DNA of 26,795 nucleotides, from IMG/VR virus record IMGVR_UViG_3300008459_011086, positions 1 through 26,795 of that record, one strand, 5' to 3'. Of this stretch, positions 1 to 26,382 are shown piece after piece; position 1 is the first letter of the stretch; each line of letters starts with the position of its first letter. The notes beneath the pieces are model-generated. The model made no database searches, had not been told where the DNA came from, and saw only the letters and a list, made by a program, of their open reading frames with translations. Made by a program: the position numbers and the translations under genes. This stretch comes from a virus.

Positions 1-880
1 TATTTTTTCCAATATAGGTTATATTTAATAATCCATTTAATGATTTAATATTAGTAAATAATGTATCTTTATACTTATAAGCTAATTCAGTAGATGATTG
101 ATAATCTTGTCTATCAATATAATTTAATGAAAATGAATTACGAGCAGTAGAGCTAAATAATACATTCCAATTATTTTTCTTAACACCAAAAGATAAAGCT
201 CCGTTTAAATTAGGAGATGAGGTAAACGATCTAGTAGTAGGAGACGATATTAATTTAGTAAATGCTCTTTTATCACCATTGCTACTTATGCGGTATTTGT
301 ATGTTGATGGAAAGCTCTGAGGGAAAAAAGTTGCGTCTACTAAGTTGAATTTTTGGAGTGTAGATATAGTTCCATATCCTGTTCCTAGACTTAAAGAAAA
401 AAAACTATTAGATACTTCTTTAGTAGACACCTGAACTAATCCTCCTGCAAAATCACCAGGCAGATTAGCTGTAGATGATTTATTTACAACAATATTATCA
501 ATTAAACTAGAAGGTATAATATCAAATGAAAATGCTCTACGATCAGGCTCAGTAGAAGGAAGCAATGTTTTATTTAACATTGCTAAATTATAGCGATCAG
601 CTAACCCCCTAACTAATACAAATTTATCATTTTGAATAGTAACACCACTTACTCTTTTAAGTGCATCACCAACAGTTCTATCAGGTGTCTTTTTAATAAA
701 ATCGATTGACACACCGTCTGATACGGCTAAGTTATTGCGAATAATATTTACAACAGCAGCTTCAGTTGATTTTTTACTTGTAGAGCGAACAGTAATTTCG
801 GATAATTGTTTATTAAAAACTGTATCTTGTGAAAACAATAATATAGGAAATAATAACAATAAAAATAATAAATGTTTCAA
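1..880 (-). CDS. TonB-dependent outer-membrane receptor, N-terminal part (runs off left edge)
   Basis: An open frame of 293 codons with no stop reaches the left edge, so the C-terminal barrel is missing from view. Residues 1-18 form a signal peptide (MKHLLFLLLLFPILLFSQ) of the Bacteroidetes type. The plug domain follows: LSEITV near 26-31, SDGVS at 54-58, the VRGLADRYN motif at 90-98, LPSTEPDRRAFSFD at 107-120, and PGDFAGG at 141-147. Early barrel strands follow. The family imports siderophores, vitamins or glycans across the outer membrane using TonB energy, and many phages use such receptors to enter cells. The start is TTG at 880, because a TAA lies directly before it in frame and no ATG gives the signal peptide. 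There is no N-terminal carboxypeptidase-like domain, which many Bacteroidetes receptors have. It lies 29 bases after the nuclease gene on the same strand and is equally AT-rich. The family call is firm; its role in a phage is unknown. Confidence 0.88.
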   Translation of the reverse strand, partial: MKHLLFLLLLFPILLFSQDTVFNKQLSEITVRSTSKKSTEAAVVNIIRNNLAVSDGVSIDFIKKTPDRTVGDALKRVSGVTIQNDKFVLVRGLADRYNLAMLNKTLLPSTEPDRRAFSFDIIPSSLIDNIVVNKSSTANLPGDFAGGLVQVSTKEVSNSFFSLSLGTGYGTISTLQKFNLVDATFFPQSFPSTYKYRISSNGDKRAFTKLISSPTTRSFTSSPNLNGALSFGVKKNNWNVLFSSTARNSFSLNYIDRQDYQSSTELAYKYKDTLFTNIKSLNGLLNITYIGKN

Positions 881-909
881 TTAAAGTGAATTTGTTTCAC
901 TTATAATTA

Positions 910-1695
910 TCATACACTTAGTTTAATACTTGTGGGTAATAACTCCGTCATCGGCTTAAAATCTGGGTTTTCCAGCTTATATATTTCGTATATGTTTTTA
1001 AACATATTAAAATTAGTAAGAATATCTCCATATTGTTTTAATTGCCATCCTTTACCTTGGATATTATCACCCTTACCTTCACCTCTAGTAGATGCTTTAA
1101 GCCATAATATACCTGTATCTTCAATTAATTGACTATGGGTTTCATTCCAAGCAACAGCATATGCTGCTAATTGTAAACCATATGAAGTGTGAAGTGAATT
1201 TGATGTTTTAATATCAAGTAACCATACTTTATTGTTTAATTTAACAATTAGATCAGCTGTACCTGCATATTCATGAGTATCTGAAAATAAATGATACTCT
1301 GTAGCTATTAGTTCTGGTTTGTAAGTATTCCAAAAGTCAGCAAATTTTAGAATCATTTTCCAAACGTCTAAGCTATATTCAGCTCTTCCACTTTCATCTA
1401 ACCAGTTTATTTCGTCACCGTTTAAAAAACGATCAACAGCAGTATGTACTTGAGTACCTTCAGCTGCTGCTTTAGAAGCAATAATATCACTATTGTGTCC
1501 TACATCTTTAAGCCAACTATGGAAAAATTGGTTTTTAGGAAAATAATTTAATACTGATGTAACTGAAGGATAATATTTGTCATTTCGTCTATAAAAACGA
1601 GAATCTAAAACATTAATTTGTTTATCTCCTTCACTATACTCAACAATGCGCTTAATTTTAGGATCCTTTATAATGTTAGCATGTCTATCAATCAT
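910..1695 (-). CDS. PD-(D/E)XK nuclease, RecB/Cas4-like exonuclease
   Basis: This 261-residue protein carries the RecB-family nuclease signature in order: VTSVL at 45-49, GTQVH with H84, E133, GTADLI with D148, the catalytic DIKTS with D161 and K163, and QLAAYA with Q175 and Y179. These residues bind the metal ions and form the active site in lambda exonuclease, RecB and Cas4 relatives. No cysteine cluster is visible, so the iron-sulphur cluster of true Cas4 is absent. Its probable job is trimming DNA ends during phage replication or recombination. The ATG overlaps the stop of the primase gene by 4 bases (ATGA), which suggests translational coupling and a shared replication role. Confidence 0.88.
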   Translation of the reverse strand: MIDRHANIIKDPKIKRIVEYSEGDKQINVLDSRFYRRNDKYYPSVTSVLNYFPKNQFFHSWLKDVGHNSDIIASKAAAEGTQVHTAVDRFLNGDEINWLDESGRAEYSLDVWKMILKFADFWNTYKPELIATEYHLFSDTHEYAGTADLIVKLNNKVWLLDIKTSNSLHTSYGLQLAAYAVAWNETHSQLIEDTGILWLKASTRGEGKGDNIQGKGWQLKQYGDILTNFNMFKNIYEIYKLENPDFKPMTELLPTSIKLSV

Positions 1696-2630
1696 ATTAA
1701 TTGTAATTTTTTCTCAAGCAAGCTCTGTAAATTCAGAGGTTTTGTTTGCTCAAGAGTGTTAAGAAATTGTTCAAAACCAATTTCATTAGCGTCTTTACCT
1801 TCCATTTCAACAAGATATACTTCTTTACCATATGACATAAGCATTTCAGCCTGTTTTAAAGCATCACGTCTAGCATCAGCATCTAAAGCAATATAAATTC
1901 TATCAACAGAGGCTTTAACTAATTTTTCCATTAATTTACCATGTATTACTTTACCAAATAAAGGAATAACATTTCGTTTAATAGTGAGAGCATCAAATAT
2001 TCCTTCAACAAGAATAATTGGTGCATCCCAATTTATGAATAACTCCCATCCGATAACGTCTTTAGCGGATGCAGGAGGATTTTTATATTTGCGGTCTGAA
2101 TCTTTATATGAACGAGCTATAAAGTAGTTTAATTTACAGTCTTCATTATAGGAAGGGATAATAACACGTTCATTATAAGTTCCATCTTTACAAAAACCAA
2201 TATTGTATTTTATAATATCGTTTTGTGTTATACCACGTTTTTTTAGAAATTTTAAAGCATGTTTTGCTTCAATTTGTGTAATTCTATTTTCAATTATACC
2301 TGAAAGAGATATAAATTCTTTAGGGAGTTCAATTGTATCTGAAACTATATTAATTTCCTTTTTATTAGGAATAATTAGGATATTTAATTCATTTATTTTG
2401 CCTTGTGGTGCTTTAATTTTTTTAAATAAAGATAATAATGTTTTACCTTTAGCACCACATACCCAACAATGCCAGAAATTCTCACGTTTTTCAGTTGTAC
2501 GTAAGTTAATTTCCATTTTATTTTTGTGATGAGTACAAAATGGACATTTAAAAGCATAATTGCCTTTACTAGTTGATTGTCCTTTGCCTAGTACGGACTC
2601 CACTAAAAATAGGAGAGCTGTATTATCCAT
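1692..2630 (-). CDS. DnaG-type DNA primase (CHC2 zinc finger plus Toprim)
   Basis: The 312-residue protein begins with a zinc-binding domain: CPFC at 29-32 and CWVC at 55-58, with histidines at 34, 35 and 54. A Toprim catalytic domain follows, with VEGIFDAL (E209), ALDADA (D250, D252) and GKDANE (K279, D280), the acidic residues that hold magnesium. Primases of this family make the RNA primers for lagging-strand synthesis. The protein is about half the length of bacterial DnaG and has no clear helicase-binding tail, as is common for phage primases. It lies 27 bases after the GIY-YIG gene and is coupled to the nuclease gene downstream. The helicase partner is not in this window. Confidence 0.93.
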   Translation of the reverse strand: MDNTALLFLVESVLGKGQSTSKGNYAFKCPFCTHHKNKMEINLRTTEKRENFWHCWVCGAKGKTLLSLFKKIKAPQGKINELNILIIPNKKEINIVSDTIELPKEFISLSGIIENRITQIEAKHALKFLKKRGITQNDIIKYNIGFCKDGTYNERVIIPSYNEDCKLNYFIARSYKDSDRKYKNPPASAKDVIGWELFINWDAPIILVEGIFDALTIKRNVIPLFGKVIHGKLMEKLVKASVDRIYIALDADARRDALKQAEMLMSYGKEVYLVEMEGKDANEIGFEQFLNTLEQTKPLNLQSLLEKKLQLI

Positions 2631-2657: not shown

Positions 2658-3092
2658 CTATAACAAGTCTTTAGTAAAAAATTTACCTAATATATTATCG
2701 TTATATGATTTATTCTTACTAATTAGAACTTCTTCTTTACATTGATAATGCATTTCGTAATATGTAAGTGCCTTTTTTGTTTTGCATTGTACTAATATCC
2801 AACGCTCAAAATTTTCTTCACCAAACTCTTTTATGTCAGCTAATAATTGCTTATTAGAGCCCCAATATGTTTTCCAATCGCTTTCAACACGAACTACTTC
2901 GTAGGTTGGTTTACGGCCAGGACCTGTTTGTTCAGCTAGTTGTTTTTTAGTTAATTTGTGTTTTTTATTATTCCAAAACACTTTTTTACCAATATAAATT
3001 TTACCTGTTTGTCGATGGGTAATTTTATAAACAAAACCAAAATACTTTTCGGGATTAAGTACATCCCAGCTTTTCCAATTATTATGTATCAT
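2658..3092 (-). CDS. GIY-YIG family endonuclease, SegE-like
   Basis: The 144-residue protein has the GIY-YIG core near its N-terminus: FGFVYKIT at about 19-26, then KIYIGKK, where the YIG half is intact and the GIY half reads FVY. The DWKTYWGSNKQLLADI and EFGEENFERWIL blocks are typical of the T4-type Seg and related free-standing phage endonucleases. A glutamate in YYEMHYQ could be the metal-binding residue. Such enzymes nick or cut DNA and often spread their own gene between phages. The start overlaps the end of the preceding 102-residue gene by 11 bases. It sits exactly where the tail genes give way to the replication genes, as expected for a mobile insertion. The family is fairly sure; cutting activity is not shown. 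Confidence 0.82.
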   Translation of the reverse strand: MIHNNWKSWDVLNPEKYFGFVYKITHRQTGKIYIGKKVFWNNKKHKLTKKQLAEQTGPGRKPTYEVVRVESDWKTYWGSNKQLLADIKEFGEENFERWILVQCKTKKALTYYEMHYQCKEEVLISKNKSYNDNILGKFFTKDLL

Positions 3093-4013: not shown

Positions 4014-4493
4014 TTAACAATTAACTCTAGCATCATCACAAGCAGTACCACAACTTGAAGCATCATATCCTAAACAATAAGAATAACAAGGTGGGGTAGG
4101 TGATGGTGATGGTGATGGGGATGGGGTAGGTGTTGGAGTTGGAGATGGTGTCGGTCCAGGTGATGGTGCAACTGGGGATGGGGATGGAGTTGGTGTTGGT
4201 GTTGGTGTTGGTGTTGGTGAGGGGGTTGGTGTTGGTGTAGGTGTTGGTGAAGGTGTTGGGGCAGGACAAGAAGTTATTGAAATATCTGTATGGTTATTAC
4301 ATATTCCTGTAGATTCAACCCTAACAGAAGTAGCATTATCAGGAACATTATACATTGCATATCCTGCTAATAAAGATGCTCTAGATACTCCCGTAACTAA
4401 GGGACAATCATACCCAGTAACATCACTATAAATGTTAAAAAGACCTGTATCTGCCCCAGCAGTTGATAATGTTATGGTTATAAGACAAGGCAT
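4014..4493 (-). CDS. Putative virion surface protein with Pro-Thr-Pro-Ser linker and Cys-rich tail
   Basis: The 159-residue protein has three parts. Residues 1-78 form a small beta-rich domain with [16 protein letters not shown] and VRVESTGIC blocks. Residues of about 79-136 are an almost pure PTPTPSP linker. Residues 137-159 form a Cys-rich end ([24 protein letters not shown]-like, with five Cys). The layout of folded head, stiff proline rod and disulphide-rich tip resembles that of the 514-residue protein just upstream, although the sequences differ. Such rods are common in appendage proteins of Bacteroidetes phages. It probably decorates the tail or capsid. The linker DNA is a simple repeat and may change length. 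Confidence 0.7.
4092..4262. repeat. GGTGTT-type simple repeat coding a PTPSP linker (159-residue protein)
   Basis: The plus strand reads as degenerate GGTGTTGGTGTT/GGTGATGG hexamers, including a run of pure GGTGTT units near 4191-4220. On the coding strand these are alternating proline and threonine/serine codons. The pure run is a likely site for slippage. It is related to, but distinct from, the 45-base repeat in the neighbouring gene. Confidence 0.8.
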
Positions 4494-4532: not shown

Positions 4533-6077
4533 TTATGCTGGTCCTCCACATGACACACATGATGCTGATGGAGTTGCTGTGAAATTAGTTCCATTTCTTG
4601 TAAATTCTCTATAATTAACCCCATCAGATAACCAGAAAGTTCCATTATTACTTACTTCTGTATCAAAACATGATTGACTGCTTGAATTTATTGTTATACC
4701 TGTGCATAAACATAAAGTTGCGGTTCCACTAAAAGTTAGATTTACATTAGTACATCCAGGAACAGCGTTACAAGCATCAGAAGATGATTGCGCTGAGAGG
4801 CTAAATGTTGAAGGTGATGGTGTTGGTGTTGGTGACGGCGTCGGAGAAGGTGTTGGTGATGGTGTTGGTGTAGCTGGTGTTGGTGTTGGTGATGGTGTTG
4901 GCGACGGTGTTGGCGACGGCGTTGGCGACGGTGTTGGTGTAGCTGGTGATGGTGTTGGCGACGGTGTTGGTGACGGTGTTGGTGTAGCTGGTGATGGTGT
5001 TGGCGACGGCGTCGGTGACGGTGTTGGTGTAGCTGGCGACGGCGTTGGCGACGGTGTTGGCGATGGTGTTGGTGAAGGTGTTGGTGACGGCGTCGGAGAA
5101 GGTGTTGGTGACGGCGTCGGAGAAGGTGTTGGTGATGGTGTAGGTGTTGGTGCAAAACAACATCTTACAGCAGTTCCTTCTCCTAAATAACAATCAGGAA
5201 CAACATAAATTGTAACTTTTGCCTTGTTACTTCTTAATTGGACTGGGCAAGACCCGGCAATATCTGCTCCTATAGTATACCATATCTGATAAGTACCAGG
5301 AGTGGTTGTTGTTAATACTATAGTTCCACTACTTCCTGTAGCCCAGGAATAGTAAGGAGTTGAAATACTTCCTGATAAACTAATAGAACTAGTATTTAAA
5401 GTTCCTGTTCTAGCATAATCATTAGGTGTAACAGAAACTTTTTTATTAGTTGATGTAGTAAAGTAAGTTGCAGAATTATTTATAGCTACTGGAGGTAAAG
5501 GGAAAATTCTTTGGTAATCCTGATTAGTTATGACTGCTAATCCATGTGCATAATATATGTTTCCTACAAATGTTTTTGATGTTTTAGTATCATATAAATT
5601 TCCATATCCATCATCATTTATATAGTAAGCAGAAGAGGATAACTGGAAGTAATTAGGTAATGCTTTTTCTCCGTAAATTTCTTGATTAATAGCTAATACT
5701 CTAATCCCTTCCATAGCCCCAGTAGGAAAATTAGTAACTAATTTACTATTATCATTGTATATAAAATAAGAAGAAGTTGGTCTCTGTTGAGAAGCAGATT
5801 CGTAATATATTGAACTTGCTAAAGATGAAGTATTTAAAGAAGCAGTATAATCTTGATAGAATAATTGATTTATTTGACTGTAGACTAATCTATCATATTG
5901 ATCTTCAGTAACAGGCTCATAACCAGGATTAAAACTACCTGTAAGGTTAGTTCCATTATATATAGTTAAGTATTCAGATGATGTTGGATACGGACAATAA
6001 GATAAAGTCCATTGCTTATTAGCATGGTAAGGTACAACCGTAACGTCTGATTTGCTTAACTTTTTGAATGATGCCAT
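4533..6077 (-). CDS. Tail fibre/adhesin-like protein with long Pro-Thr-Pro-Ser rod
   Basis: The 514-residue protein has an N-terminal part (1-300) resembling the 312-residue protein upstream: a block around [20 protein letters not shown] and [12 protein letters not shown] matches [13 protein letters not shown] and [12 protein letters not shown] there. A domain with an Ig-like look follows (about 195-295, ending in [12 protein letters not shown]). Residues of about 308-423 are an uninterrupted PTPSPTPSP rod with four ATP interruptions. Residues 424-514 form a Cys-rich C-terminal domain (CNAVPGC, CLC, CVSC). The probable arrangement is an N-terminal virion attachment part, a stiff rod and an exposed tip, which suits receptor binding. 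It starts 7 bases after the 312-residue gene ends. The fibre role is inferred from architecture and position. Confidence 0.75.
4809..5155. repeat. 45-base tandem repeats coding the PTPSP rod of the 514-residue protein
   Basis: The core consists of tandem units of 45 bases (15 residues, each beginning [11 protein letters not shown]), marked on the plus strand by GTAGCTGG at roughly 4869, 4939, 4984 and 5029. Shorter GGTGTTGGTGACGGC-like repeats flank them. Within each unit are 18-base and 6-base sub-repeats. Units differ at silent positions (GGT/GGC, GAT/GAC), so the array has drifted and is not a recent expansion or an obvious assembly error. It is much richer in G+C than the surroundings. 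Confidence 0.85.
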
Positions 6078-7740: not shown

Positions 7741-10700
7741 TTATTGTGTTGTTGTACCTTGTTGGTCAGCTAATAATTTTTGTTTTACTTCTTTAGTAAT
7801 TGTATCTATATTAGTTAAAACATCAGGAGCTAAATTTTGTGGAATTACAAAACCATATGATGTTTTTCCTTCACGTTTTTTAAATGTTAAATAAGTATTA
7901 GTTTCATCTTCTTGTCTAGACAATACTAAAAATCTTTTGTAAGATCCTGATATTAAGTCATTTCTATAGGTATTAGATAAAGAACTATCTAATTGAACTT
8001 GTAAAAAACTCCCAGAAAAAGATGAACTTAATATTCTAGATTCAACATAAGTACCATCAGATAAATATGTTAATACTAAATCATATGGTTTAACAATAAA
8101 CGGATAATCTACATCTCCATATATAGGATATAAACTACTACTTTGAGAACCAGTTAATGGATTAGGAACAAACTGATAATTGTTATTGTAAAAATTACTT
8201 AAACCCGTATTAAAAGTAATAATATGATCTGATCCTGTATTATTAGCTGAAGATGAAATTGAAGATGTGTTGAAGTAAGATGGTGGGCAATTTATAGAAG
8301 CATACCCAGTAGCTGTTGATAATGAACTTATCAATAAACTCCCAGCACTAGTAAAGGAGGCTGTATAATTTGTTGTACTTAAAGCAGACTGTGAAAATGC
8401 TAAAACTAATTTATCTCCTTGGGCAACATTTATAGGGTTTAAAAGAGGTCTATTAATAGTAAAAGTACGAGAAACCGCTCCTGTTGAAGTTTCAATATTT
8501 GGAATATCATATAGTTGTCCTGCAATAGAATAATCATATATATCAGGAGTTGTACATGAAGGATCAGCAATTCCATTATAAGTATTATTGGTAAGACTAT
8601 ATAAAGTTGGATAATAATTACTTAATGAACATCCTACTTTATTAGTATAAAAAGGTTTATTATACTTATAAAAAGTAGTACCAATTGGGTAATCTGTTAC
8701 TCCTATAAGTACAGGTTTAGTACTAACTATAGTTTCATTAGGTGATATTGAAGGGGTTGCATATATATAAAAATCAGTAATAGCAGCAGAAGCAGTAGCA
8801 CTATTTACTATGTTGATAGTAGCAGAATCAGAAACTATTTCGCTTCCATTTTTTAATAATTTTAAAGTCCAAGTTGAATTTCCTCCTTGAGGCATACTTA
8901 CGGTAATTCCTAAACTTGCTTCTACTCTATGATCTCCTGATTCTTGTACGGAATATGTAGGGAAAGAAGAAACTGTGCTTGCTGTTAAGTAGGCTGCCCC
9001 TTCAGTAACATTGTCAAATATTTTATATATATTACCATTAGAAGCTACAGGATAGTTAGGAGTTCCAGAACCACTTATAGTTCCTAATGCTATACTATTA
9101 TTAGCTCTTCCTAAATAACTATTTCCTCCCCCAGCTAATGTACTTTCAAAGTAAAGTATTCCATCGGCGCTACAACTTGCAAAGTAAAGTATAGGATAAT
9201 AAGAATATCCACTTTCAAAAATAAGTTTATTTCCGTCCGTTGTTTTTTGATTGCCAAATTTTTGATTATCAAATAATGAAATATTTAAATAATCATTAAT
9301 AACAAATGTTCTTTGTACATCTTCCCAATGTTTATTGCGTTGATTTAATTCTGTTAATCCTCCAAATTCGTCTACAAGATATTTTAATGTAGTTCTATTA
9401 CGATTAGGAAGAAAAGAAGATGATATTATTTCTGTAAATATTCCTATTTGGCGTGTATTTTTATCTATAGCTGCTGTTTTACCATATGAATTATCACCTT
9501 CATAGTTATCAGAAGCACTAGTATAAGTATTATATAATAAACTACTTACTTTAACACCATCATATCTTGATCTATTATATGTTGTAAGTGATTCATATGA
9601 ATCTTGTAAATAAGCAGGAGTTAATATACTTCCTGTTGTACCATATATAAATTCTATATCTTGTCTAGTTAAAGATAATCTACTAGCAGATACATTATTT
9701 AATAAAACATTATATTCAGAATGATCAAATGCATTCCTTTCAGAAGTTGTTAAACTTGAAGCAGAATATTGTGAATAAGGATTAAAGTTTCTTTGTATCC
9801 AATCATCCCCATATTCAATTACACTACCTGTAAATTCACCTGTATACCAAGGCTCTCTATCCATTATCATACACTTGTACATATCTCCATATCCAGATTG
9901 AGCCTTAATTTTTGGACCTTTTAAATTAGCATCCATTGGTTCTATTTCACTAGTAGAAGAAGGATTAGCATATACCCATTTGTTTCTCTCTAACACAGGA
10001 GAACTAATAGTAATACCAGTTGAAAGATTTGCCCTTGCTGGGGTGAAATCTTTTATCATTTTAAATAATGAATTATCAAAAAATTGAATTAAGCGGATAA
10101 AACCAGCATAATCCATATAAGATGAAGTAAAATTATAATAGGTATTTTTTTGTTGATTTAAATCTGTATAAGAACCACTATATAATTGTCTTGGATCACC
10201 TATGTAATCATCTAAACTCCAATAAGGATTAGCAACAGCTATAGAAGCAGAAGCATAAGTATCAATTTGAGATTCTGGAGAGAATGATACATCTATATAA
10301 TGTAAATCATCTGATCTAAATTGAGCTGAAGATGTTGGGTATTCTATTAAATTAATATAAGGTGATAATACACTACCTGTCACTATACTAGATGATATTA
10401 TTCTAATTTTATTATTATTAAATTCATCTAGCATATCGTTTTTTAAATTACCACCATATTCTTTAACACTTAGTACACTACCTGTAATTCCAAAAGTAGA
10501 TATTAATGTTTGCAAACCATAAGTTGTACCTCTAGTTTTTAATAATAAAGGTAAGTTATGATAAATGCGTTTGTAAGTTTCAGCAAGTAAATCTTTACGA
10601 GGAATATTATTTAAATAAGAACCAGTAGGAGCAAAATCATTATCAAAATTAACACTACCACTATCATTTCCTATTAAAAATGGAATATTATCTGAATCTC

Positions 10701-12228
10701 CATATTTGTTATATAGTTTGGTTCCTAATGATTGTAATGTAGTATACACTAAATCTTTAGAAATACCTTGTTCTAGATTATTATTTGCTAAATTAATATC
10801 AGTAATAGCACTTAAAAATATCCAAATATTATCAAAATAATGACCAACCATATCAAGAAAATTAAGATATGGTTCATTATTTCCATCGTCTTTGATAAAG
10901 GTAGGAACAGTATAAGTTAACTTATTTTGATTATAATCATCATAACCTTCTGCACTAGCAGTTGATGTATTAAACCAAAGAGAAGATGAAGTAGATCCTG
11001 TTGGTAATAAAGTAAAAGGCTTCAAAGATCCAGATTTAGGATAAGGAGTTATTCCAAATTCTAAGGATGAAGTTAAAGTTGATCCACTTTCAAAATATAA
11101 ATAGTATTCAAAACCATCAAAATTAGCTATAATATTATCAATACTAGCTGTTGCTGAATTTAAATCACGTATTACACTGGGATTACTAGAGGTTAAAGGT
11201 GTATATACTGCAATATTATTATTATAATTCTCTATTTCTTTTACTTTATTATAAAAATTAATAACTCTTTGTTTAGCAGAGCTAAAAAATACAAAGTTGT
11301 TATAATCTGAATAATCAGTATTAATATCGATACTTTGGGAAGTGATTAGACTTAAAAGTTGTTGATATGAAGAAGAAACATTTAAACTATTTAATACAGA
11401 ATTATATGTTTGATAAGAAGTACCTACATTATTTGTGTTAGAAATTTCAATATCAAAATTAGGACCTCTTAATTGAGGACCGGGAGCGGGTATGATTAAC
11501 TTGTCTAAATTGATATTAAAAGAATAAGGATTAACCTTTTCTTTTACAACCCATAGTGTTACTTTATCACTAATATCATCGGGGAGTGGTTGGTAAAGTT
11601 TAAATAAAATTTCATAGCCTGATTCAACTTTATTTAAAGCTGTATTTGTAGCTATAACTTGAGTGTTATTGCCAAAATTAAGTAGATATTCAGTAAAATA
11701 AGCGGATGAACTATACTCATTTATTAATGATAGAGATCCACTTTCAATCTGTTCGTTTGTTAAAGTAGTAGAACCTATTCTTAACTCTGTTCTATCAGCA
11801 GATATTTCTTTTAAAAATAATCCCGTTTGAAAGGGATCAGAAATTCTATTATTAAAAAAATTATATTGTACTTTAAATTCTCCTGATGAATAGCCTAAAT
11901 TTTGAAGATCTTTAACAGGATCTATTTCTATAACTGGTAAAGTAGAATATGATTGAGAATTATAATTTGAAATAACTCCTACAGATACATCAGTATAATT
12001 ACCAGGGGTTTGTCCTTGCGTGTTAGGTAATTTGAAATCTCTATAACTATAATTTATATTTAAAAGATTATCCCCTGCGTCATAAACAAAATATTCAATA
12101 TAGTCATTAGGATAACCAAAATCTTCCTTTAATAGTATAGGAGAAAGTAAATTAATATCATCAGCATCATAACGAGATACTTGTTGTTCATTTAAAATTT
12201 CACCTACTATTTTAATATTATCCGCCAT
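7741..12228 (-). CDS. Very large baseplate wedge/tail protein (T4 gp7/gp10-region counterpart)
   Basis: The protein has 1495 residues. Around residues 545-595 it carries ETYKRIYHNLPLLLKTRGT, then YGLQTLISTFGI and KEYGG, a block found in large tail or baseplate proteins of many T4-like environmental phages and reminiscent of the tail protein I (P2 gpI) region. The N-terminal third is mixed helix/strand with QISRYDADDINLL-like text. The C-terminal third is Ser/Thr-rich beta structure ending in YGFVIPQNLAPDVL and a short charged helix. T4 gp7 is also over 1000 residues and follows gp6 in gene order, so a wedge role is the best guess. Its ATG overlaps the previous stop (TAATG). It is not safe to assign a T4 gene number. 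Confidence 0.78.
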   Translation of the reverse strand: MADNIKIVGEILNEQQVSRYDADDINLLSPILLKEDFGYPNDYIEYFVYDAGDNLLNINYSYRDFKLPNTQGQTPGNYTDVSVGVISNYNSQSYSTLPVIEIDPVKDLQNLGYSSGEFKVQYNFFNNRISDPFQTGLFLKEISADRTELRIGSTTLTNEQIESGSLSLINEYSSSAYFTEYLLNFGNNTQVIATNTALNKVESGYEILFKLYQPLPDDISDKVTLWVVKEKVNPYSFNINLDKLIIPAPGPQLRGPNFDIEISNTNNVGTSYQTYNSVLNSLNVSSSYQQLLSLITSQSIDINTDYSDYNNFVFFSSAKQRVINFYNKVKEIENYNNNIAVYTPLTSSNPSVIRDLNSATASIDNIIANFDGFEYYLYFESGSTLTSSLEFGITPYPKSGSLKPFTLLPTGSTSSSLWFNTSTASAEGYDDYNQNKLTYTVPTFIKDDGNNEPYLNFLDMVGHYFDNIWIFLSAITDINLANNNLEQGISKDLVYTTLQSLGTKLYNKYGDSDNIPFLIGNDSGSVNFDNDFAPTGSYLNNIPRKDLLAETYKRIYHNLPLLLKTRGTTYGLQTLISTFGITGSVLSVKEYGGNLKNDMLDEFNNNKIRIISSSIVTGSVLSPYINLIEYPTSSAQFRSDDLHYIDVSFSPESQIDTYASASIAVANPYWSLDDYIGDPRQLYSGSYTDLNQQKNTYYNFTSSYMDYAGFIRLIQFFDNSLFKMIKDFTPARANLSTGITISSPVLERNKWVYANPSSTSEIEPMDANLKGPKIKAQSGYGDMYKCMIMDREPWYTGEFTGSVIEYGDDWIQRNFNPYSQYSASSLTTSERNAFDHSEYNVLLNNVSASRLSLTRQDIEFIYGTTGSILTPAYLQDSYESLTTYNRSRYDGVKVSSLLYNTYTSASDNYEGDNSYGKTAAIDKNTRQIGIFTEIISSSFLPNRNRTTLKYLVDEFGGLTELNQRNKHWEDVQRTFVINDYLNISLFDNQKFGNQKTTDGNKLIFESGYSYYPILYFASCSADGILYFESTLAGGGNSYLGRANNSIALGTISGSGTPNYPVASNGNIYKIFDNVTEGAAYLTASTVSSFPTYSVQESGDHRVEASLGITVSMPQGGNSTWTLKLLKNGSEIVSDSATINIVNSATASAAITDFYIYATPSISPNETIVSTKPVLIGVTDYPIGTTFYKYNKPFYTNKVGCSLSNYYPTLYSLTNNTYNGIADPSCTTPDIYDYSIAGQLYDIPNIETSTGAVSRTFTINRPLLNPINVAQGDKLVLAFSQSALSTTNYTASFTSAGSLLISSLSTATGYASINCPPSYFNTSSISSSANNTGSDHIITFNTGLSNFYNNNYQFVPNPLTGSQSSSLYPIYGDVDYPFIVKPYDLVLTYLSDGTYVESRILSSSFSGSFLQVQLDSSLSNTYRNDLISGSYKRFLVLSRQEDETNTYLTFKKREGKTSYGFVIPQNLAPDVLTNIDTITKEVKQKLLADQQGTTTQ

Positions 12229-12563
12229 TATCTTTTAGTCAATTCGTTTATAGTTGTTTGAGCATCAAGTACTTGTTGTCTTAAAGAGGTAATTTCATTT
12301 AATAAGGCCTGAACATCTTCTTGGCTGATACTAATACCTAGGTAATCAGCTTCTCTTTGCAAAATAAATTGATGTGAATTAGATTCTCCTTCTTTTGGAA
12401 TCTGGTAAAATACTTGGTCGTACAATTCAAAAAAATCATCCACTGTAAAGGAAAGTTGTTCCTCATCAGTTTGTTGATTTATTAGCTGGTTGAATCCAGT
12501 ATTAATAACCCTACTATAGGTATTCTTATCGTATACTGTTTTTTGTACGGGTATTTGAGACAT
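12228..12563 (-). CDS. Small baseplate/tail-associated protein with C-terminal coiled coil
   Basis: The 111-residue protein has VDDFFELYDQVFYQIPKEG at about 41-60 and a C-terminal helix with heptad spacing (ALLNEITSLRQQVLDAQTTINELTKR) that should form a coiled coil. Both ends overlap neighbouring genes by the TAATG pattern, so it is translated with the DNRLRE-like protein before it and the 1495-residue protein after it. Similar short proteins occur at this position in T4-like phages of aquatic bacteria, without assigned function. A bridging or oligomerising role in the baseplate is an inference from the coiled coil and tight coupling. Confidence 0.72.
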   Translation of the reverse strand: MSQIPVQKTVYDKNTYSRVINTGFNQLINQQTDEEQLSFTVDDFFELYDQVFYQIPKEGESNSHQFILQREADYLGISISQEDVQALLNEITSLRQQVLDAQTTINELTKR

Positions 12564-24892: not shown

Positions 24893-25147
24893 TTAAGCAG
24901 CTACTTCTACCTTTTTAGTTGCTGGGCGACCTCTCTTAATTGATCCACCTGCAGCAATCCTTGCTGCTTGTGCTGCAAGTTTAGCTTGACGTGCTGAACC
25001 TGCTACTGCGGGTCTACCCCTTTTTACTTCACCACCTGCTGCTACACGAGCTGCTCTAGCGGCTAAACGGGCTTGACGTGCCGAACCTTCTACTGTTGGG
25101 CGGCCTTTTGATTTTGGAGTTGTGTTTTCTGTGTTTGTTTTTGACAT
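24893..25147 (-). CDS. AT-hook protein with three GRP motifs
   Basis: The 84-residue protein has 29-residue repeats: KGRPTVEGSARQARLAA (14-30), KRGRPAVAGSARQAKLAA (42-59) and a last KRGRPATKK (71-79). GRP cores lie at 15-17, 44-46 and 73-75. GRP flanked by Lys/Arg is the AT-hook, which lies in the minor groove of AT-rich DNA. The linkers (ARQAxLAAxAARxAAGG) are Ala/Arg helices like those of histone H1-type bacterial proteins. It is very basic and has no other domain. It could compact phage DNA, shield it, or alter host transcription. It is expressed alone, from a full Bacteroidetes promoter to a strong terminator. Confidence 0.85.
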   Translation of the reverse strand: MSKTNTENTTPKSKGRPTVEGSARQARLAARAARVAAGGEVKRGRPAVAGSARQAKLAAQAARIAAGGSIKRGRPATKKVEVAA

Positions 25148-25752: not shown

Positions 25753-26382
25753 TCAACGTCTTGACTTAGGTCTGCCGCGTTTTCCTCCTGAACGTTTCTG
25801 TAAAGCTGCTTTTGCGGCTATCTTCTTCGCTTGAGCCTCTGGTGTGAGAGCTGGTCTTCCTCTTCTTCCTCCTACTTTTGGTGTGGAAACCGTTTTTGGA
25901 ACGGCGGATTTTGGGCGCCCTCTCTTTCCACCTGATCTGGCTTTTGCCTCTGCTTTTAAAGCCTCCTTATGTGCCTTTAAAGCAGGGCTTAACGCGGGTC
26001 TACCTCTTTTACCGTGCTTAGGTTTATTCTCTTTCTCAATCTGCTTCACCTTCTTATCACGTTGTTTTTGTTGTTTTTCTGCTCTACGAGCCATTTTATC
26101 CAACATTTTCTTGTGTTTAAGAACAGCTGGGTGTATAATAACTTGATCCAGGTCGTATGAACGAATGCCTCCACTCACGTCAACAACCTCATAACCGCCA
26201 TTGGGAAAAGTGGGTTTTTCACCTGGCTCATATCGCTTCCAAAGTTCAAAATATAATTTCTTGTCGTAAAAAAATGGTGCTGGGAGTACACGAATACCTT
26301 TTTCCTGTGGAACAAAAATTTCCTCCGTTTCATCATACGCTAGATATGTTCCGTATTGCCATGGTTTTTCTATTACTTTCAT
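25753..26382 (-). CDS. AT-hook protein with N-terminal globular domain and four GRP motifs
   Basis: In the 209-residue protein, residues 1-90 form a globular beta-rich part (KPWQYGTYLAYDETEEIFVPQ, VLPAPFFYDKKLYFELWKRYEPG) that I do not recognise. Residues 91-122 are a charged helix. The rest holds four AT-hooks: GKRGRPALSP (GRP at 127-129), GKRGRPKSAV (155-157), GRRGRPALTP (175-177) and GKRGRPKSRR (203-205), arranged as a duplicated pair 28 residues apart within each pair. Linkers are Ala/Lys helices. The N-terminal domain may bring a partner to AT-rich DNA. It shares the hook type, but not the linker sequence, with the 84-residue protein. A full host-type promoter lies upstream. Confidence 0.85.
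   Translation of the reverse strand: MKVIEKPWQYGTYLAYDETEEIFVPQEKGIRVLPAPFFYDKKLYFELWKRYEPGEKPTFPNGGYEVVDVSGGIRSYDLDQVIIHPAVLKHKKMLDKMARRAEKQQKQRDKKVKQIEKENKPKHGKRGRPALSPALKAHKEALKAEAKARSGGKRGRPKSAVPKTVSTPKVGGRRGRPALTPEAQAKKIAAKAALQKRSGGKRGRPKSRR

Follow-up and report, generated by a model that had tools for sequence, protein, structure and literature searches.

A TonB-dependent receptor and lipoprotein cassette carried by phages of Bacteroidota: a candidate route for phosphorus uptake by infected cells

It has been shown that phosphate depletion, and not depletion of iron or nitrogen, strongly induces neighbouring receptor-lipoprotein genes in Flavobacterium johnsoniae (PMC8115612). For example, the phoBR operon of this bacterium includes Fjoh_0545, a receptor with Plug, CarbopepD_reg_2 and OMP_b-brl_3 domains, and Fjoh_0546, a pectin-lyase-like lipoprotein named form II (FII), while the related lipoprotein form I exceeded all other exoproteins in abundance in that study and PlcP and a glycosyltransferase were described as phosphate-controlled lipid-remodelling genes (PMC8115612). 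Phages are also known to carry phosphorus genes under the control of host PhoBR, as reported for the cyanophage genes pstS and phoA (Zeng and Chisholm 2012, as cited in PMC10976474). As to phage TonB receptors, an earlier, sequence-only reading of the DNA described here knew of no well-studied example, and this still holds, although a TonB receptor ('SusC') had already been reported in the megaphages Mar_Mega_1 and LR745206 and was read as serving carbohydrate uptake (PMC9723777). Our search of the open literature, where absence is no proof, found no phage TonB receptor beyond that report.

The stretch of DNA analysed here, referred to as the window, is an entire IMG/VR record of 26,795 bases. 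Its first genes, all on the minus strand, are as follows.

2 to 880, minus strand: TonB-dependent receptor (TBDT), N-terminal 293 codons comprising signal peptide, plug and barrel start, with the remainder beyond the contig end (Plug PF07715; 38 viral relatives).
881 to 909, minus strand: spacer of 29 bases with the inverted repeat AAGTGAA (902-896) / TTCACTT (890-884) just 5' of the receptor start (read from the sequence).
910 to 1695, minus strand: phage exonuclease (PD-(D/E)XK), a conserved gene with accessory genes inserted behind it (PHROG 298, E 7.3e-37; PF12705; 129 viral relatives).
1692 to 2630, minus strand: phage DNA primase (Toprim) (PHROG 47, E 1.7e-44).
2658 to 3092, minus strand: SegE-like GIY-YIG endonuclease, ahead of the primase (PF19835, E 5.6e-28).

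The receptor frame starts with TTG at position 880 and is open at the contig edge. Its N-terminus, MKHLLFLLLLFPILLFSQ, resembles a signal peptide as judged by eye, the Plug domain PF07715 covers residues 57-146 above the Pfam cut-off (E 1.3e-8), and the motifs VRGLADRYN and PGDFAGG are both found in the frame. The fragment matched no PHROGs family, and a sequence search of the PDB returned only weak matches for it, to the colicin I receptor, and nothing of note for the full-length receptor or for the lipoprotein described below. Plug domain and exonuclease and primase neighbours on the same strand bear out the earlier claim of a TonB receptor within a phage gene cluster, as the coordinates do the 29-base gap that separates it from the preceding gene. 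The order from endonuclease to primase is kept in nearly all exonuclease loci, and the phage context of the window is firm because contractile-tail genes are encoded elsewhere in it (baseplate wedge PHROG 261 and 10646/219). Two tail-region proteins of the window contain tandem repeats (4099-4259 and 4809-5152) coding for long (P-[ST])n runs such as PTPSPTPTP, which probably serve fibres or adhesins as flexible linkers. Further proteins (24893-25147 and 25753-26382) contain the repeated, AT-hook-like sequence GGKRGRPA(L/V), and similar repeats precede a zeta-toxin-like kinase in several related loci.

A scan of IMG/VR viral contigs identified 38 relatives of the receptor fragment, with 61-84% identity across its length, a level that excludes chance, and 129 relatives of the neighbouring exonuclease. 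Intact receptors in this family have 747-830 aa, the longer ones carrying CarbopepD_reg_2 in front, and the contigs that contain them reach 326 kb. As in the window, the receptor is located behind the exonuclease in L002, L003, L004, L005, L006, L007, L017, L041, L042 and L095, so that related phages keep it at the same place on independent contigs, and in many other relatives it sits elsewhere. The relatives with the gene order of the window also indicate what would be expected to its left, namely a complete 748-aa receptor followed by a lipoprotein. Sixteen large records (88-326 kb) hold the receptor at one locus each; a terminase is present in 11 of them, and the receptor frame is unbroken except in G296, where it forms two frames, and G293, where it meets the contig edge. 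Among the closest receptor pairs listed, dN/dS is 0.055-0.195. The family thus shows what is expected of a phage auxiliary metabolic gene, being intact, inside bona fide phage genomes and under purifying selection. In the 183-kb contig of L005 (9971-12122) the receptor is broken into two frames, one of 580 and one of 158 aa, while the very similar copy of L006 is intact, and the split represents either a sequencing error or a decaying copy.

The receptor is one half of a two-gene cassette. In a dereplicated set, a lipoprotein of 400 aa is encoded directly 3' of the receptor in all 45 cases with room for it, and in 44 of these 45 the stop and start codons overlap by 4 bases (ATGA). A search with the lipoprotein alone recovered 198 viral loci, of which 80 were kept, and the receptor lies just upstream in every one of the kept loci with room. 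The lipoprotein of the window would be located beyond the contig end and is assumed from these relatives. It has been reported that the surface-export signal of Capnocytophaga lipoproteins is C-x-K-(D/E)2 (PMC5080379); the lipobox cysteine of the phage lipoprotein is mostly followed by x-K-(E/D), which is near but not identical to that signal.

As regards predicted folds, full-length relatives of the receptor match Plug PF07715 above the Pfam cut-off and the OMP_b-brl_3 barrel, and a model of one of them shows about 22 long strands, with TonB transporters as its Foldseek matches (E 2e-15), barrel pLDDT mostly 70-88 and a poorly modelled plug (mean 57). The 22-strand barrel of a TonB transporter is therefore predicted for the relatives, the window copy being too short to show it. 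The lipoprotein has no Pfam match, and in this and in its predicted fold it differs from the SusD family. Its model (pLDDT 85) was only weakly matched by Foldseek (best E 0.0085), and a second look by VIA comparison revealed a right-handed beta-helix with Z about 24 to the alginate epimerases AlgG and AlgE4 and a resemblance to phage tailspikes and lyases as well. Since epimerases, tailspikes and lyases all match, the predicted beta-helix says nothing on function.

A PHO box consists of 7-bp half-sites with a 4-bp gap, and most receptors located outside the exonuclease slot are preceded, mostly 50-85 bp before the start, by a direct repeat with a matching layout and an 11-bp period (e.g. TTAATAATTTGATAATA and TTAACAATTTCTTAACA). 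When only intergenic spacers of 60 bp or more are counted, TAAYA-N6-TAAY is found in 32 of 43 phage receptor spacers and in 8 of 397 that belong to other genes at the same loci; the corresponding p-value of 8e-32 is too strong because these promoters share ancestry and are also where the motif was first recognised. Controls reduce this bias and do not remove it: other periods (8-10 and 12-15) are seen in 0-3 of the 43 spacers, and a motif-free self-match by lag has its maximum at 11 (z 4.6). It should also be mentioned that predicted Pho boxes in phages can be unreliable, as cautioned for cyanophages (PMC10976474). Repeat-like matches upstream of a tail gene (11/47) belonged, in most of the copies displayed, to a phage-promoter-like stretch, TATTTATAATATA, and were not counted as PHO boxes.

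The repeat is absent upstream of the receptor of the window and of the other exonuclease-slot copies (9/9); in many of these copies the spacer is short and contains an inverted repeat of the form GTGAA...TTCAC. Other genes may occupy this slot. In L058, L061, L073, L076, L077, L082 and L118, an Oar-like outer-membrane protein of 990-1120 aa (CarboxypepD_reg and OMP_b-brl_4) is encoded directly behind the exonuclease, so two outer-membrane receptor-like types share one insertion place. Oar-like genes showed the 11-bp-period repeat in reverse orientation only (3/7), and no PHO box is claimed for them. The inverted repeat AAGTGAA-N5-TTCACTT of the window (881-902 region) is also found ahead of the Oar-like gene of L077, and may for this reason be an element specific to the slot, with a role in regulation or recombination. 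In L008, L009, L042, L043, L062, L168, L179 and others, the slot or the place behind the cassette is taken by a GT2 glycosyltransferase gene with a metallophosphoesterase gene after it, and the 11-bp-period repeat lies upstream of the glycosyltransferase of L008, L168 and L179.

Close cellular copies are rare, and the closest, in Aquirufa, lies in a phosphate/phosphonate island. A scan of 84,980 species, using peptide patterns that detect close relatives only, returned Aquirufa antheringensis and a related MAG, plus weak matches. A whole-protein search retrieved a close copy from 3 of 222 Aquirufa-family genomes, and among 395 genomes across the phylum one was present in Aquirufa only, the next best reaching 31-48% identity in their best segments. 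The A. antheringensis receptor is 69% identical to that of L004, and its lipoprotein 73% identical to the phage lipoprotein. A tree places the Aquirufa receptor inside the phage group, with five phage receptors as its sister (99/90), and so makes exchange between phages and hosts, in one direction or the other, likely. Behind the Aquirufa pair come an alkaline-phosphatase-superfamily protein (PF01676) and a PitA-like permease (PHO4). Also encoded no more than about 25 kb away are a phosphate-selective porin O/P, another PHO4 permease, an alkaline phosphatase, a SusC/SusD pair, a Phn-HD oxygenase (TIGR03276) and a TIGR03364 oxidoreductase, both above cut-off, and a PhnX-like hydrolase. PhoU was not found in the Aquirufa genome.

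As an independent check, the host genome shows the repeat accumulating in this phosphate island. The 2.5-Mb Aquirufa genome contains 34 matches to TAAYA-N6-TAAYA, and 10 of them, at 6 places, lie in the 22-kb island, where length by itself would predict about 0.3. These island repeats stand upstream of the phosphoesterase, of the porin/PHO4 unit (as a run of three), of the SusC/PhnX divergent region, of PitA and of the receptor. A further repeat is located immediately upstream of a response regulator of the PhoB family (TIGR02154; its 206.6 bits do not reach the cut-off of 296). The same clustering is seen in a second, closely related genome. Because it precedes phosphate genes and a PhoB-like regulator, the repeat is a good candidate for a PHO box, and it is probably recognised in the phages by host PhoB. 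The island phosphoesterase, which is PlcP-like and preceded by the box, is up to 48% identical to the metallophosphoesterase of some of these phages, and it is possible that the phage glycosyltransferase-phosphoesterase pair mediates lipid remodelling under phosphate stress, as a counterpart of the PlcP and glycosyltransferase genes of F. johnsoniae (PMC8115612).

The best explanation of these findings, and one that we consider fairly probable, is that the cassette is a phage PHO-regulon module for the import of organic phosphorus. It would consist of a TonB-dependent outer-membrane transporter, the first 293 codons of which are in the window, and an outer-membrane, probably surface-located, beta-helix lipoprotein. 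During infection both would be produced in the host envelope, where the lipoprotein may capture a phosphorus substrate such as an organophosphate, a phosphonate or a phosphorylated polymer, and the receptor may import it with the host TonB-ExbB-ExbD system, so that phage DNA synthesis in a phosphate-limited Bacteroidota cell would be provided with phosphorus. The cassette of most phages would bring its own promoter and be switched on under starvation through the repeat, while in the lineage of the window, behind the exonuclease and without the box, it is probably transcribed from phage promoters. As the window copy lacks the repeat, its phosphorus function rests on homology. Feeding of the host during infection, which the sequence-only reading had listed among several functions for a single receptor gene, is thus the best-supported class of function, with the amendments that phosphorus, and not iron or carbon, is the likely nutrient and that the unit is a two-gene cassette. 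As likely as not is the wider proposal that a widespread group of large Bacteroidota phages is the main reservoir of the module, which would move between loci and phages with its PhoB-responsive promoter and occasionally back into bacteria, and that infected cells gain a route of phosphorus uptake absent from most of their relatives.

The cassette might instead import another nutrient, such as a glycan, siderophore-bound iron or cobalamin, its position in the Aquirufa phosphate island being incidental. This view is helped by the breadth of the receptor-lipoprotein family in Bacteroidota, where it often occurs outside phosphate clusters; distant pairs (about 30-37% identity) have no phosphate-gene neighbours, and the family as a whole is therefore not tied to phosphorus. 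The resemblance of the beta-helix to polysaccharide lyases and epimerases and the carbohydrate uptake proposed for the megaphage 'SusC' (PMC9723777) point the same way. On the other hand, the 11-bp repeat is common to the phage and host copies and to phosphate genes, the closest cellular copy lies within a phosphorus island, and similar lipoproteins respond to depletion of phosphate and not of iron or nitrogen (PMC8115612), which leaves import of another nutrient unlikely and uptake of phosphorus the preferred reading.

Even less probable is a role in superinfection exclusion, in which the phage receptor would replace or flood the host TonB receptor or absorb rival tail fibres or bacteriocins as a decoy. 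TonB receptors are commonly used by phages and colicins, and variable surface proteins could be swapped in the exonuclease slot, which may hold an Oar-like protein instead; however, a decoy would explain neither why a translationally coupled lipoprotein always accompanies the receptor nor why the promoter is probably nutrient-responsive, and the whole barrel is strongly conserved (dN/dS under 0.2) with no diversified loops. Nothing was found in support of the earlier suggestion that a host entry receptor is masked or replaced. An artefact at 880-910, be it misassembly, host contamination or a prophage boundary, is hardly credible. The receptor does stop at a contig edge and TonB receptors are as a rule host genes, but the same exonuclease-receptor junction recurs in the independent contigs L002, L004, L006, L017, L041, L042 and L095, receptors are found far inside terminase-bearing contigs of 88-326 kb, and close cellular copies are as scarce as stated above. 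For the family, the large terminase-bearing records, the mostly unbroken frames and the low dN/dS exclude misassembly and contamination.

Large phages of water-dwelling Bacteroidota thus repeatedly carry a receptor and a lipoprotein, mostly behind a phosphate-starvation-like switch, which suggests virus-driven phosphorus uptake by the starving host. Phages of a second phylum appear to supply a gate in the outer membrane, linked to the host signal that also controls the cyanophage genes. If this is true, the purpose of a phage TonB receptor is explained and phosphate limitation becomes linked to infection of Bacteroidota in a testable manner. It would also provide a handle on an uncharacterised and yet highly expressed class of low-phosphate lipoproteins, and the combination of receptor, lipoprotein and box would become a sequence marker for phosphorus-limited viral communities.

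The searchable literature appears to contain no earlier account of the module, of its link to a PHO-like box or of its distribution among Bacteroidota phages. Fjoh_0545-0546 resembles the phage pair in having an adjacent receptor and lipoprotein, the receptor domains of the longer form and a beta-helix-type lipoprotein, under phosphate control; it differs in being chromosomal, beside phoBR, and the likeness is one of domains and fold description (PMC8115612). The phage lipoprotein, with its pectin-lyase-like predicted fold and lipobox cysteine, may be akin to the beta-helix lipoproteins FI, FII and FIII of F. johnsoniae. The A. antheringensis pair has the same gene order and the same 11-bp box as the phages, whereas it is cellular and adjoins a phosphatase and PitA that are missing beside the phage cassettes. 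SusCD / PusCD and XusA-XusB likewise combine a TonB transporter with a surface lipoprotein partner, which is SusD or XusB in those systems and a beta-helix lipoprotein in the phages. The megaphage receptor shares about 30% identity with the phage family and has a swapped gene order, and the accessible part of its report describes no box, lipoprotein or phosphorus link (PMC9723777); in L120 (LR745206.1, a 634-kb phage; 8404-12241), this distant receptor, at about 30% identity, has a lipoprotein gene in front of it and not behind. Finally, the cyanophage genes encode a periplasmic binding protein or a phosphatase in cyanobacterial hosts, whereas the cassette described here encodes an outer-membrane TonB system in Bacteroidota.
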